64,000 bases of DNA from Cryobacterium psychrotolerans (GTDB lineage: Bacteria; Actinomycetota; Actinomycetes; Actinomycetales; Microbacteriaceae), in NCBI RefSeq assembly GCF_900101115.1, contig NZ_FNFU01000001.1:248001-312000 (forward strand). Reading direction: 5' to 3'. Of the stretch, positions 3,029-56,316 are shown piece by piece. The notes under the pieces were generated by a model. It searched no databases and was not told the DNA's origin. It saw only the letters and a list, made by a program, of their open reading frames with translations. The position numbers were made by a program, and so were the translations under genes. Positions within the stretch are counted from its first letter, which is position 1. The number at the start of each line of letters is the position of its first letter.

Positions 3029-3104
3029 GCGCCGAGTTTCACAGTTCCGGTCGAGTTCACCGGGTGCGCGGGGCGAACTCGACCGCAAGAGTCAAATTCG
3101 GCGC
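3029..3104. repeat. Intergenic palindrome, family C copy 1 (imperfect)
   Basis: Arms 3029-3058 and 3075-3104 pair over 30 bp with several mismatches in the middle. The outer gcgccga and the inner ggtcgagttc cores are intact. It lies 10 bases behind the sdaA stop codon. It shares its cores with the copies at 28015-28092 and 55865-55938. It is the most decayed member of the family and has no uridine tract. Confidence 0.75.
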
Positions 3105-4558: not shown

Positions 4559-4625
4559 CCCCGCGAAACCGCAGTTGTGCGCGTTATTCCGCCGATATAA
4601 CGCGCACAACTGCGGTTTCGCGGGG
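4559..4625. repeat. Intergenic palindrome, family A copy 1 (perfect 29-bp arms)
   Basis: Arms 4559-4587 and 4597-4625 are perfect inverted copies around a 9-base loop. The arm starts ccccgcgaaaccgcag and ends gcgcgttat. It begins 12 bases behind the stop codon of the CoA-binding protein gene (minus strand). The 35 bases 4549-4583 recur exactly at 35726-35760. No T-run follows on either strand, so it is not a textbook terminator, although a terminator or 3'-end role is likely. Confidence 0.9.
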
Positions 4626-7965: not shown

Positions 7966-8078
7966 CCCGGCCCGCCCACGCGCGGGATGACAACGGCTTC
8001 CACGTTGAGTTGCGGACAAAGCACCTTCAATTCGCGAATAAAGGTACTTTCTCCGCATCTCAGCCACACTGCTCGATG

Positions 8079-18272: not shown

Positions 18273-18337
18273 CCCGCGAAACCGCAATTGTGCGCGTTAT
18301 TCGCGGGTTTTAGCGCGCACAACTGCGGTTTCGCGGG
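18273..18337. repeat. Intergenic palindrome, family A copy 2
   Basis: Arms 18273-18299 and 18311-18337 pair over 27 bp with one mismatch (18287 with 18323) and one G-T pair. It starts three bases behind the ispE stop and ends 43 bases before the ABC-F start. Confidence 0.88.
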
Positions 18338-23000: not shown

Positions 23001-23063
23001 CGCCGAACTGTGAGTTTGGCACCTTCCCGGGCCCCACGAAGGTGCCAAACTCACGGTTCGGCG
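23001..23063. repeat. Intergenic palindrome, family B copy 1
   Basis: Arms 23001-23026 and 23038-23063 pair over 26 bp with a single G-T pair. The arm starts cgccgaactgtgagtttggc. It lies in the convergent junction of metI and the MarR-type gene. Confidence 0.9.
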
Positions 23064-26214: not shown

Positions 26215-26277
26215 CGCCGAACTGTGAGTTCGGCACCTTCCCGAGCCCGACCAAGGTGCCAAACTCACAGTTCGGCG
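26215..26277. repeat. Intergenic palindrome, family B copy 2
   Basis: Arms 26215-26239 and 26253-26277 pair over 25 bp with one mismatch. It fills the convergent junction of prs and the small membrane protein gene. Confidence 0.9.
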
Positions 26278-26746: not shown

Positions 26747-27982
26747 ATGACCACGCTGGAGCGCCACCTCGGGCTCGGGCGCGCGATCATCGTCGGCCTG
26801 GCCGCGATGATCGGCGCCGGCGTCTTCTACGTCTGGGCGCCGGCCGCGGCGGCCGCCGGAACGGGCCTCCTGATCGGGCTTGTCATCGCCGGGGTCATCG
26901 CCTCGCTCAACGCCCTCAGCTCCGCGCAGCTCGCGATGGCCTACCCGGTGTCGGGCGGCGCGTACGCCTTCGGCCGCGCCACCCTCGGCCCCTGGTGGGG
27001 GTTCGCGGCCGGCTGGCTTTTCCTCGCCGGCAAGACCGCCTCGGCCGGAGCGATCGCCCTCATCGCCGGCAGCTACCTCTGGCCCGAACAGTCCCGCACC
27101 GTCGCGGTGGCAGCGGTGGTCGTGCTCTGCGCCGTGAACATGGCGGGCATCCGGACCACGGCCGGAGTGAGCGCCGCGATCGTGTTCACCGTGCTCGGCG
27201 GCCTGCTCGTCGTCTTCGCGGCGATCGGCTTCGGCGGCAGCCTGTCCGGGGCGAGCCTGGACCTGTCGACGATGACGGATGCCGGCTGGTACGGCATCCT
27301 GCAATCGGCCGGCCTGCTCTTCTTCTGCTTCGCCGGGTACGCCCGGATGGCGACGCTCGGCGAAGAGGTGCGGGCCCCCCGGCACACCCTGCCGCGGGCG
27401 ATCATCACCGCGCTGGGCATCACGCTGGTGATCTACGCAGTCATCGGGGTGCTCTGCGTGACCATCCTCGGCCCGGCCGTCCTCGCGACGTCCGCCTCGC
27501 CGCTGGCGGACGTGCTCGGCGGCGACGAGCCCTGGACCGGCCTCGCCCGCGTGGTGGCCGCGATCGCCTGCCTCGGCTCTCTGGTCGGGATCCTCGCCGG
27601 TCTCAGCCGAACCGGGCTGGCGATGGCCAGGGAGCGCGACCTGCCCGGCCCGCTCAGCCGGATCTCCGAGCGCACGCACGCGCCCATTCTGGCCGAGGCA
27701 ACCTTCGGGCTGGCCGCGATCGCCGGCATCCTGCTGCTGGACCCGGCGCGACTGGTCGGCTTCTCGGCCTGCGCCGTGCTCGTCTACTACGCGATCGCGC
27801 ACCTGAGCGCGCTCCGGCAGCGCCCCGCGGACCGCTGGCTGCCCCGGGTGATCCAATACGCGGGGGTGGCCGGATGCCTGCTGCTCGCGGTCACGCTCCC
27901 GTGGCAGGGCGTGCTCGCCGCGGCCGCCTGGCTCGCCGTCGGCCTGTTCGCCCGAGCCGTCCGCCTCGCCCGCGCCCGCTGA
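26747..27982 (+). CDS. APC family amino-acid permease
   Basis: A 411-residue polytopic transporter. The helix 1 motif LGRAIIVGLAAMIGAGVFYVWA carries the GAGVF signature for the unwound substrate site. AYPVSGGAYAFGRATLGPWW and ETRAP-like GEEVRAPRHTLPRAIITALG are also typical. About eleven or twelve transmembrane segments are visible, fewer at the C-terminus than in the largest members. It probably exchanges or imports a neutral or cationic amino acid by proton coupling; substrate unknown. The 78-bp palindrome lies behind it. Confidence 0.88.
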   Translation: MTTLERHLGLGRAIIVGLAAMIGAGVFYVWAPAAAAAGTGLLIGLVIAGVIASLNALSSAQLAMAYPVSGGAYAFGRATLGPWWGFAAGWLFLAGKTASAGAIALIAGSYLWPEQSRTVAVAAVVVLCAVNMAGIRTTAGVSAAIVFTVLGGLLVVFAAIGFGGSLSGASLDLSTMTDAGWYGILQSAGLLFFCFAGYARMATLGEEVRAPRHTLPRAIITALGITLVIYAVIGVLCVTILGPAVLATSASPLADVLGGDEPWTGLARVVAAIACLGSLVGILAGLSRTGLAMARERDLPGPLSRISERTHAPILAEATFGLAAIAGILLLDPARLVGFSACAVLVYYAIAHLSALRQRPADRWLPRVIQYAGVAGCLLLAVTLPWQGVLAAAAWLAVGLFARAVRLARAR

Positions 27983-28014
27983 CCCGCCCCGCCGCCCGGT
28001 TCCGTCCGGTTCCG

Positions 28015-28092
28015 TCCGCCGAGCTTGCCACTTCCGGTCGAGTTTGCCTGGCGCGCCAGGCAAACTCGACCGGAAGTGGCAAGCTCGGCGGA
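28015..28092. repeat. Perfect 78-bp palindrome without spacer, family C copy 2
   Basis: Bases 28015-28053 are exactly the reverse complement of 28054-28092, with the centre ggcg|cgcc. It stands in the convergent junction of the APC permease (stop 27982) and gnd (stop 28113). Each arm contains the cores gccgagcttgcc and ttccggtcgagtttgcc. No loop is available, so as RNA it would fold with a forced small loop. As DNA it could form a cruciform. Confidence 0.97.
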
Positions 28093-28112
28093 AACGCGAG
28101 GGCGGGAGGCGC

Positions 28113-29564
28113 CTAGTGCGAGGAACCCGCCGACTCGACCTCGGAGCGGTCGCCCGACCACAGGGTGTGGAACGTGCCCGGCCGGTCGACGCGCTTGTAG
28201 GTGTGCGCGCCGAAGAAGTCCCGCTGGCCCTGCACGAGGGCGGCCGGCAGGCGCTCACTGGCGAGCGAGTCGAAGTAGCTCAACGCCGAGGCGAACCCGG
28301 GAACCGGGATGCCCGACAGCGCGGCGGTCGAGACGATCCGGCGCCAGGCGGCCTCACCGTCGGCGACGGCCTTGGCGAAGTACGGGTCGACGAGCAGCGT
28401 CGGGATCGACGGGTCGTTCGCGTAGGCATCCACGATGCGGTTGAGGAACTGGGCCCGAATGATGCAGCCGCCGCGCCAGATCGTGGCGATGGCGCCCTTA
28501 TCGACGTTCCAGCCGTACTTCTCGGCGCCGGCGATGATGGCGTCGAAGCCCTGGGCGTAGGCGACGACCTTGGAGGCGTAGAGCGCCTGGCGCACGTCGT
28601 CCTGGAAGGTGTGGCCGACGACGGCGATCTCCGGACGGGCGTCGACGATCGCGCGGAACGGGACCCGCTGCTCCGGGTGGCTCGACACGGCGCGGGCGAA
28701 GACCGCCTCGGCGATCCCGCCGACCGGCACGCCCAGGTCGAGCGCGTTCTGCACGGTCCAGACTCCGGTGCCCTTCGAGCCGGCCTCGTCGAGCACGATG
28801 TCGACGAACGGCTTGCCAGTCGCAGCATCGACCTGGCGGAGCACCTCGGCGGTGATCTCGATCAGGTAGCTCTCGAGGTCGCCCGAGTTCCACTCCGTGA
28901 ACACGTCGGCGATGGCGGCGGGGGAGTGCCCGCCCACCTTGCGGAGCAGGTCGTAGGCCTCGGCGATGAGCTGCATGTCGGCGTATTCGATGCCGTTGTG
29001 GATCATCTTGACGAAGTGGCCGGCGCCATCCGTGCCCACGTGGGTGACGCAGGGCACGCCGTCGACGACGGCGGCGATCGATTCGAGGATCGGGCCGAGG
29101 GTCTTGTACGCCTCCACCGATCCGCCGGGCATGATGCTCGGGCCCTTGAGGGCGCCCTCTTCGCCGCCGGAGATGCCGGCGCCGACGAAGTTCACGCCGG
29201 TCGCGCTGACGGCCTTCTCCCGGCGGATGGTGTCGTGGAAGTCGGCGTTGCCGCCGTCGACGATGATGTCGCCGGGCTCGAACAGGGCGGTCAGCGCTTC
29301 GATCACGGCATCCGTGCCCCGGCCGGCCTGGACCATGATGATCGCCGTGCGCGGCTTCTGCAGCGAGGCGACGAAGTCTTCAATCGTTTCGGATGCCACG
29401 AAGCCGGCCTCGGGGTGCTCCCCGGTCAGCAGGCGGGTGCGTTCGGGGGAGCGGTTGTACACCGCGACGGTGTTGCCCTCCCGGCTGGCGAGGTTGCGGG
29501 CGAGGTTCGAGCCCATCACCGCCAGTCCGACGACGCCGATGTTTGCGGTTGAAGTTTCAGACAT
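28113..29564 (-). CDS. gnd: 6-phosphogluconate dehydrogenase (decarboxylating)
   Basis: Oxidises 6-phosphogluconate to ribulose-5-phosphate with CO2 release in the pentose phosphate pathway. The 483-residue length is the long, homodimeric form. NADP-binding GVVGLAVMGSNLARNLA, VQAGRGTDAVIEAL, the substrate motif ISGGEEGALKGPSIMPGG, and KMIHNGIEYADMQLIAEAY with the catalytic Lys are present. AGGAG lies six bases before the ATG at 29564, so this gene has a normal leader. It is divergent from rplY with 274 bases between. Confidence 0.97.
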   Translation of the reverse strand: MSETSTANIGVVGLAVMGSNLARNLASREGNTVAVYNRSPERTRLLTGEHPEAGFVASETIEDFVASLQKPRTAIIMVQAGRGTDAVIEALTALFEPGDIIVDGGNADFHDTIRREKAVSATGVNFVGAGISGGEEGALKGPSIMPGGSVEAYKTLGPILESIAAVVDGVPCVTHVGTDGAGHFVKMIHNGIEYADMQLIAEAYDLLRKVGGHSPAAIADVFTEWNSGDLESYLIEITAEVLRQVDAATGKPFVDIVLDEAGSKGTGVWTVQNALDLGVPVGGIAEAVFARAVSSHPEQRVPFRAIVDARPEIAVVGHTFQDDVRQALYASKVVAYAQGFDAIIAGAEKYGWNVDKGAIATIWRGGCIIRAQFLNRIVDAYANDPSIPTLLVDPYFAKAVADGEAAWRRIVSTAALSGIPVPGFASALSYFDSLASERLPAALVQGQRDFFGAHTYKRVDRPGTFHTLWSGDRSEVESAGSSH

Positions 29565-31135: not shown

Positions 31136-31200
31136 CCGCCGAACTGTGAGTTTGGCACCTTCGCCGGGCGCGGGAAGGTGCCAAACTCACAGTTCGGCGG
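31136..31200. repeat. Intergenic palindrome, family B copy 3 (perfect 27-bp arms)
   Basis: Arms 31136-31162 and 31174-31200 are perfect inverted copies with an 11-base loop. It starts 14 bases behind the pth stop and ends 38 bases before the mfd -10 hexamer, so it separates two transcription units that run the same way. Confidence 0.93.
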
Positions 31201-35725: not shown

Positions 35726-35824
35726 CCCCGTTCCTCCCCGCGAAACCGCAGTTGTGCGCGAAATAGCGCCCTCATAACGAGCACAAGTGCGTTTTCGCGG
35801 GGGGAGTCGCGGGGAGGAACGGGG
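35726..35824. repeat. Intergenic palindrome, family A copy 3, with alternative right arms
   Basis: Outer arms 35726-35742 and 35808-35824 are a perfect 17-bp pair. The left sequence 35736-35750 can instead pair with 35788-35802 (one mismatch). The element exactly fills the gap between mazG (stop at 35725) and the convergent permease (stop codon from 35827), so both stop codons border it. Confidence 0.9.
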
Positions 35825-38540: not shown

Positions 38541-38607
38541 CCCCGCGAAACTGCAGTTGTGCGCGCTAAAACGCGTTCATAACGCGCACGAGTGCGTTTT
38601 CGCGGGG
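38541..38607. repeat. Intergenic palindrome, family A copy 4 (imperfect)
   Basis: The arms pair around a centre near 38574, with ccccgcgaaa against ttttcgcgggg intact at the ends and several mismatches inside. The loop ctaaaacgcgttcataac resembles that of the copy at 52641-52705. It starts 12 bases behind the ferritin stop codon. Confidence 0.82.
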
Positions 38608-52640: not shown

Positions 52641-52705
52641 CCCGCGAAACCGCAGTTGTGCGCGCTAAAACGCCCTGATAACGCGCACAAGTGCGGTTTC
52701 GCGGG
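52641..52705. repeat. Intergenic palindrome, family A copy 5
   Basis: Arms 52641-52664 and 52682-52705 pair with one mismatch. It lies in the convergent junction of the GH1 gene (stop 52625) and the ABC permease, whose stop codon (52706-52708) it directly touches. The loop ctaaaacgccctgataa resembles those at 38541 and 35726. Confidence 0.9.
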
Positions 52706-55864: not shown

Positions 55865-55938
55865 CGCCGAGCTCGCCTGTTCCGGTCGAGTTCGCCAGGC
55901 ACACCAGGCGAACTCGACCGGAAGTGTCCAGGTCGGCG
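55865..55938. repeat. Intergenic palindrome, family C copy 3
   Basis: Arms 55865-55896 and 55907-55938 pair over 32 bp. The inner 17 bp (ttccggtcgagttcgcc) are perfect, while the outer half has several mismatches. It is 49 bases behind the htpX stop. Confidence 0.85.
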
Positions 55939-56254
55939 AACGGATGCCGTCACCACGCCGAGAATCGCCGATTACGCCGAGATGACCCGGTATAGCGGCG
56001 ACACTCGGCGCAAACGGCGACACTCGCGGCCGCATCCGCCTGCCCGGCCGCACCAGGCTGCCACCGCAGCGCAGACCGATTGGACGGGGATCTCCAGGCT
56101 CGATCCCCGGCCGCCCGGCCGCCCGCGGTGGTGCTGCGCCGCTGTGCCACCCGCGCAGCGGCGCACTGCCCGCGCGACGCGATCTCGACTAGCTCGATCA
56201 CCGGACACGGACAATCTCCTGGAGGTCGAGACCCGCCTTCTGCCTTCCACCTTC

Positions 56255-56316
56255 CGCCGAACTGTGAGTTTGGCACCTTCGTGGGCCCACGAAGGTGCCA
56301 AACTCACAGTTCGGCG
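56255..56316. repeat. Perfect 62-bp palindrome without spacer, family B copy 4
   Basis: Bases 56255-56285 are exactly the reverse complement of 56286-56316, with the centre gtggg|cccac. It differs from the other family B copies in that the loop itself has become part of the palindrome. It lies 29 bases behind the stop codon of the AlkZ-like gene (minus strand). Confidence 0.97.

Follow-up and report, generated by a model that had tools for sequence, protein, structure and literature searches.

REP-like elements are best known from Proteobacteria, where they are found with RAYT enzymes. In the available parts of two accounts (PMC3116915, PMC3733652), REPs and REPINs are dispersed, non-coding, palindromic sequences of many copies, located in both convergent and tandem gaps, with several families per genome, tandem arrays, and some families limited to a species; REPs are 20–40 bp in length. 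Those tagged with CGTC are said to lack a dedicated transposase and reside mainly in alpha-Proteobacteria, with no mention of Actinobacteria in the portions of the main text available (PMC3733652). In bacteria, inverted repeats are also enriched after stop codons (PMC13155455, available part), and template switching is described as a maker of perfect stems (PMC8794818, available part).

The palindrome at positions 28015–28092 of the C. psychrotolerans window (the whole 64,000-nucleotide stretch of DNA that was analysed) belongs to a set of elements that share each of these features of REP and REPIN distribution. They are multi-copy, extragenic and palindromic, with one copy elsewhere lying inside a called gene, but the Cryobacterium elements are 59–78 bp long, and each arm of the type seen here contains two direct copies of a variable word. 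The RAYT domain (Y1_Tnp, PF01797) was detected in 0 of 57 genomes of the genus, including none in C. psychrotolerans, compared with 5 of 14 in the control, and RAYT mobilisation of these elements is thus rejected. In the 8 nt beyond either end of the 74-bp unit, the 31 copies examined have no GTAG tag; CGTC occurs once on the left and never on the right, and GACG occurs three times on the right; the elements also differ from the CGTC-tagged REPs in sequence and layout. Because size, RAYT, end tags and word layout all differ, we describe the elements as REP/REPIN-like in distribution and do not file them as REPs. We found no recognisable description of them in the open-licence PubMed Central literature; in their available parts, the RepRanger paper (PMC12306157) makes no mention of Cryobacterium, and a paper on a Cryobacterium genome (PMC7381226) uses "palindromic" only for CRISPR.

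We consider it probable that 28015–28092 is a REP/REPIN-like element that lacks a RAYT and was made perfect by copying of one arm onto the other, and that it probably acts as a hairpin at gene ends. The elements have many copies, are found mainly after genes, form lineage-limited families at the same gene ends, and in several species have a layout in which CGAG is followed by a four-base word twice in each arm. Repeat family, gene-end placement, turnover between species and repeated word all lay beyond the view of an earlier sequence-only reading of this stretch.

The palindrome and its relatives in C. psychrotolerans

The sequence at 28015–28092 is exactly its own reverse complement, with 39-bp arms and a spacer of zero, and is the longest spacerless palindrome of the window; the second longest, at 56255–56316, has 31-bp arms, and thereafter the arms are only 9 bp. 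The chance expectation for 39-bp arms is about 7e-17 per 64 kb at 70% GC. The earlier description of a perfect, spacer-less 78-bp palindrome between two convergent genes is therefore exact, the neighbours being as follows.

26747..27982, + strand: amino acid permease (PF13520), convergent neighbour
28015..28092, no strand: perfect palindrome, a family A element; 74-bp unit at 28017–28090 plus 2 bp on each side
28113..29564, − strand: 6-phosphogluconate dehydrogenase, gnd (PF00393, PF03446), convergent neighbour

The palindrome lies 20 nt downstream of the gnd stop codon, and the RNA of 28000–28110 folds as a single stem of −97.2 kcal/mol (z −12.4). There are no terminator-like sites within 27900–28200, and the stem has no U-tract after it. 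An Rfam search of 27000–29000 returned six matches, none reaching the gathering score; five are on the palindrome, all of them to miRNA precursors (best 40.3 versus 59), and a match to Actino-ugpB is at 28415–28505 (22.2 versus 42.5). Since every match is under gathering, a known Rfam RNA family for the palindrome is rejected.

The palindrome is not an isolated one, as a 501-bp query around it has 72 matches in the draft C. psychrotolerans genome (3.25 Mb, 45 contigs; both strands counted), with 76–88% identity away from the site itself. A profile search of 310.5 kb of C. psychrotolerans sequence, composed mostly of stretches picked around matches of that query, identifies 31 copies of the 74-bp unit, which constitute family A. 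There are at least five further palindrome families in this genome: B (63 bp), C (65 bp), D (59–61 bp), E (about 72 bp) and F (59–61 bp). The other copies in the window, to which no strand is assigned, are listed here. Of the 57 genus genomes, G006 is the one most closely related by its gnd end (95%); in the 1,999 bases compared it is identical to C. tagatosivorans Sr47.

3030..3103: family A copy, 9 mismatched pairs
4560..4624: family C copy
8005..8062: family D copy
18273..18337: family C copy; G006 has family C at the same place
23001..23063: family B copy; G006 has family B at the same place
26215..26277: family B copy; G006 has family B at the same place
31137..31199: family B copy; G006 has family B at the same place
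35737..35801: family C copy; G006 has family C at the same place
38542..38606: family C copy; G006 has family C at the same place
52641..52705: family C copy
55865..55938: family A copy, 8 mismatched pairs; adjoins the E copy
55959..56026: family E copy, A-like layout; left-arm word TGTC
56255..56316: family B copy; palindrome is perfect, 31-bp arms, no spacer

In the family B copy at 56255–56316 the usual 11-nt loop is replaced by a 10-nt palindromic one. We also note that A and E elements are often neighbours, in the manner of composite REP clusters, both in the window (55865–56026) and in six other stretches (L011, L013, L014, L019, L025 and L027). By eye, 8 of 10 strong E copies are near an A copy, a rate biased by the choice of stretches around A copies, and for this reason an A–E pairing is not claimed.

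Hairpins of at least 50 bp with a score of at least 16 number eight in the 64-kb window and three in 400 kb of other genera (20 other genera of Microbacteriaceae, each represented by a single 20-kb stretch); in three shuffles of the window none is present at score 14. Stretches from two other genera of the family (L129 and L133) contain palindromes of 57–61 bp (arms about 25 nt long, loops about 9–11 nt), which are like families B, D and F in build and unlike them in sequence.

Placement at gene ends and turnover among species

The positions of the elements relative to genes were determined in 464 kb, comprising the window and 20 C. psychrotolerans stretches that were not picked for matches, which avoids the bias of selection for family A; genes were called by a simple custom script. 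Among 46 elements of families A–F, 24 are in convergent gaps, 18 in tandem gaps, three in divergent gaps and one at an edge, with none inside genes. Considering gaps of at least 75 nt, 20 of 38 between convergent genes contain either an A–F element or some other hairpin no shorter than 50 bp; for tandem genes the figure is 18 of 113, and for divergent genes 4 of 54 (Fisher p of 1.6e-6 for convergent against divergent, 2.0e-5 for convergent against tandem, and 0.15 for tandem against divergent). There are exceptions: in the stretches chosen for family A, one A copy falls within a called gene and two others occupy divergent gaps, and in the larger set used for the wobble tests described below, five of 79 A copies are in divergent gaps and six at edges or inside genes. 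Short hairpins of terminator type are sometimes located beside A–F elements (in L016, L019 and L026).

The ends of the gnd genes illustrate the turnover of these families. Of the 30 genus genomes examined, 23 have a hairpin (score of at least 13) within 120 nt of the gnd end, and in 14 of these 23 its edge is 14–20 nt from the end of the gene. These hairpins fall into 14 sequence clusters by an automatic threshold, some of them visibly related, with about ten by eye. The gnd ends of related species mostly carry palindromes of unrelated sequence. Family A is found there in C. psychrotolerans, with weaker A-type elements in G001 (at most 38.0 bits). The G001 elements are three in succession after gnd (L065 1179–1492; 38.0, 30.7 and 14.8 bits), and three other species (L059, L061 and L062) have near-perfect palindromes of 61–71 bp after gnd with a 1-nt loop.

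The permease/gnd gap of G006 contains no A element and no hairpin above the scan threshold; it has inverted ends of 12 bp that match exactly and are 45 nt apart, a kind also seen by eye in L049, L056 and L067. At the six other slots of the window that can be compared with G006, three of family B and three of family C, the family is kept in all six. The exact core of family B is found in only 2 of the 57 genus genomes, with 23 copies in C. psychrotolerans and 24 in G006. The retention at these six slots, the restriction of B to two genomes, and the variety of the gnd-end hairpins together indicate that the palindrome families originate and expand in small clades, and that many gene ends remain occupied meanwhile.

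One G006 A element (L166) is cleanly missing from C. psychrotolerans (L140), with both flanks aligned, and no target-site duplication was recognised at this, the one clean indel. For the other eleven G006 A elements above 45 bits, eight have flanks matching A-bearing C. psychrotolerans stretches and three are unmatched in the sample, a comparison biased towards sharing because the C. psychrotolerans stretches were picked for A. Several arrangements around A copies were seen in addition. Two near-identical direct A copies at C32:48223–53368 (L009 3224–8369) flank a 5-kb malonate-type operon with a MatC-like carrier, a CoA transferase, a carboxyl transferase and, by eye, a GntR-like regulator; at this place G006 has one A copy and the operon is absent. 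About 3.9 kb of C. psychrotolerans sequence adjoins an A copy in L021 (5237–9154) where G006 has about 0.3 kb. In G026, identical A copies are paired 170–181 nt apart (L171 936/1117 and L179 963/1133), like tandem REP units.

Repeated words and the similarity of the arms

In the A-type layout, which is seen in the family A alignment and in other genomes, each arm contains CGAG and CGGTCGAG, and each of these is followed by a four-base word. The words occupy columns 8–11, 27–30, 45–48 and 64–67 of the family A alignment, a spacing of 19, 18 and 19 nt, and in 28015–28092 they are as follows.

28024..28027, + strand: word 1, CTTG, outer left, after CGCCGAG (columns 8–11)
28043..28046, + strand: word 2, TTTG, inner left, after CGGTCGAG (columns 27–30)
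28061..28064, − strand: word 3, TTTG, inner right (columns 45–48)
28080..28083, − strand: word 4, CTTG, outer right (columns 64–67)

The word varies between genomes. In C. psychrotolerans the commonest is TTTG, which fills the four places 8, 15, 15 and 9 times in 27, and the same holds for G006. G026 and G040 most often have TTCG, whereas G008 and G042 have AGTG. The predominance of AGTG is clear for the inner pair only (14 of 16 at both inner places in G008, and 6 and 4 of 6 in G042), the outer words of both genomes being mostly unlike it. Within an element the words agree more than in shuffles, clearly so for the inner pair and less so for the outer words. Among 109 elements from 23 genomes, restricted to inner frames with 22-nt centres, the inner words agree at 3.37 of four positions compared to 2.19 when shuffled over all elements (maximum 2.51 in 2000 shuffles) and 3.06 when the shuffling is confined to each genome (none of 2000 reaching the observed value). 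Outer-left and inner-left words agree at 2.80 positions compared to 1.98 when shuffled, and the within-genome shuffles are lower too (a fraction of at most 0.004 as high). The inner frame is imposed by the query, and its constancy is thus partly query-made; the outer CGAG is not so imposed, and is kept in 56 (left) and 51 (right) of the 109 elements.

The inner frame is found in 27 of the 57 genus genomes, with up to 59 copies. The full frame pattern occurs in one of 396 genomes of the phylum, that of C. psychrotolerans, in a sample without any other Cryobacterium genome and without G355. The inner frame pattern occurs in 77 of 248 genomes of the order, although among the matches listed most are chance-like and in coding DNA. 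There are five inner-frame matches in G134, one of several Microbacteriaceae genomes outside that listing, and five in G355, which is from a different family of the same order. Four of the G355 matches are palindromes that carry TCAG in one or both arms; one G355 element is a perfect 74-bp palindrome with TCAG four times. Family E has a layout like that of family A with a different word, and in the AACTGTTGCCGG family, which follows gnd in seven species, a word is repeated at 19 nt, as judged by eye. A Sphingopyxis match of the genome scan (L044) was dropped, being by eye the coding end of another gene.

The two arms of a copy are no more similar to each other than to the arms of other copies. 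Arms of the same family A copy have 9.9 differences and arms of different copies 9.35, with 0.99 of permutations lower or equal, and in a covariation test of the 31 copies 81.2% of cells are paired, compared to 82.6% in shuffles (496 of 500 as high). Covariation between the arms was thus not found in either test, and the earlier suggestion of active maintenance is not supported as far as pairing is concerned. There is likewise no wobble bias towards one RNA strand, with 63 G-U and 53 A-C pairs on the sense strand (p 0.40) after removal of identical copies and of matches below 40 bits; by family the G-U/A-C counts are 34/33 (A), 3/0 (B), 10/4 (C), 5/9 (D) and 11/7 (E), and a smaller set has 16 of each. 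Pair-by-pair selection of an RNA stem in family A is rejected, as the pairing, permutation and wobble tests are all null. Since neither covariation nor wobble bias is seen, recognition of a DNA motif fits the arms better than RNA stem selection, although a stem of this length may nevertheless function as a hairpin. The proposed hairpin role at gene ends draws no direct support from the wobble tests, because these show no RNA-strand preference.

In all four genomes compared, the two arms of one copy resemble each other slightly less than arms of different copies do (9.9/9.35, 10.22/9.46, 8.74/8.57 and 8.36/7.58), with only C. psychrotolerans near 0.01 one-sided, and there may be selection against perfect arms in A elements. 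The sign reverses when five genomes are pooled because the words differ by species, and the within-genome word shuffles point in the opposite direction because genomes mix subfamilies.

Origin of the elements and of the perfect copy

Over 37 pairs the arms of 28015–28092 have no mismatches, whereas the other 30 C. psychrotolerans A copies have 6–14, which bears out the earlier view that the perfect state needs explaining. The probability of no mismatches is 1.7e-7 as the product of per-pair match rates, with independence assumed. No perfect copy was found among 43 scored A copies (74-nt matches above 45 bits) of five other genus genomes, where the fewest mismatches are three. Because the other A copies are imperfect and the G006 gap is without an A element, either recent arrival or recent perfection of 28015–28092 is likely. 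The recent origin proposed earlier is thus borne out in part by the comparison with relatives called for with it: the G006 gap, which has no A element, is in favour, but the A-type elements at the gnd end of the more distant G001 count against recent arrival. The arm of 28015–28092 differs from copy L008:14588 by two letters in the right arm and seven in the left, and is not clearly of left or of right type (−0.7 bits).

A single arm-copying event would best explain the perfect copy; we infer this from one copy whose ancestor is not seen. Correction of quasipalindromes by template switching likewise rewrites one arm to match the other in one event (PMC8794818, available part), although here the event is deduced for one copy of a dispersed repeat. 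According to the explanation that we favour, A elements would have been spread or recombined around the genome by a factor recognising the element on DNA, and be kept mainly at 3′ ends, where the hairpin could stop transcription from both sides or cap the permease and gnd mRNAs. At this site an ordinary imperfect copy would then have become 28015–28092 when one template switch rewrote one arm from the other.

Several other explanations were considered. The elements could simply be intrinsic terminators that work in both directions and are maintained because selection acts on the RNA hairpin, with the likeness among copies secondary. Like intrinsic terminators they provide stable, G+C-rich hairpins after stop codons and in convergent gaps, and the after-gene placement and convergent bias, the edge 14–20 nt from the gnd end in most genomes with a hairpin, the very stable fold, and the published enrichment of inverted repeats after stop codons (PMC13155455, available part) are all in keeping with this. 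However, 28015–28092 has no U-tract, its stem is much longer than that of a terminator, the 31 A copies show neither covariation nor a G-U excess, and a terminator has no need of words shared across copies; this account is possible but doubtful. Alternatively, the elements could be MITEs, the two 37-bp arms corresponding to the terminal inverted repeats of a transposon that is itself unseen. The whole A element does consist of two inverted arms, there are dozens of copies, presence and absence with aligned flanks is observed, and direct A copies flank the malonate-type operon that G006 lacks at that place. Among the matches listed there is no autonomous parent with A ends. Against a MITE origin, no target-site duplication was recognised at the one clean indel, separate half elements are absent from the matches listed, and no transposase is encoded by the ten genes checked within or alongside A-flanked stretches, making such an origin unlikely.

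Two further explanations concern the perfect copy itself. If new copies always insert perfect and then decay, 28015–28092 would simply be the youngest, which accords with its second-highest score to the family A profile (74.0 versus 74.4 bits) and with the same G006 gap being without an A element. Decaying copies should not, however, have arms as different from each other as from those of other copies, as seen here and also in G006, G026 and G040, and we regard this as distinctly unlikely. The true site could also be an imperfect A copy of which the assembler mirrored one arm, given that the assembly is a draft of 45 contigs and that two G006 contigs meet within the permease/gnd gap, the latter fitting an earlier warning of assembly trouble. 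But a 374-kb C. psychrotolerans contig spans the site with differing flanks, the permease and gnd ends adjoin in G006 too (across the two contigs, by eye), and G355 contains a perfect 74-bp element of the same type. Moreover, 78 bp is shorter than the usual sequencing reads, and an artefact is highly improbable.

We return to the favoured explanation, in which a REP/REPIN-like element is perfected by arm copying, to consider how the palindrome persists. A search for sbcC and sbcD, as suggested with the earlier reading, found SbcD; the start of SbcC is directly after it, although its reading is cut by the end of the locus and is under the family cut-off. Because these adjoin in the C. psychrotolerans genome, the palindrome appears to persist in a host with the SbcCD nuclease. 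As regards the tolerance of palindromes proposed earlier, this same genome contains many elements of the kind. The earlier statement that palindromes of this size are normally unstable is overstated for 78 bp, since in E. coli marked instability concerns clearly longer palindromes.

As to how the families change, we speculate, with low confidence, that each A-type element is an array of several DNA recognition sites, in which the frame is fixed and the four-base word can be exchanged, and that the word is read by a non-RAYT protein acting in trans. Word and protein would change together such that a lineage rewrites its whole set of elements, and perfect palindromes would represent the step at which a changed word is copied from arm to arm.

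An Actinomycetota genus in which RAYTs are undetected in 57 genomes thus has several lineage-limited palindrome families, which occupy about half of the sampled convergent gaps and take one another's place at a given gene end. Through the repeated word there is a direct handle on the factor that would spread the elements, and this factor should vary from species to species in step with the word. The perfect copy at 28015–28092 may represent a natural case of palindrome arms being made alike in a host with SbcCD.
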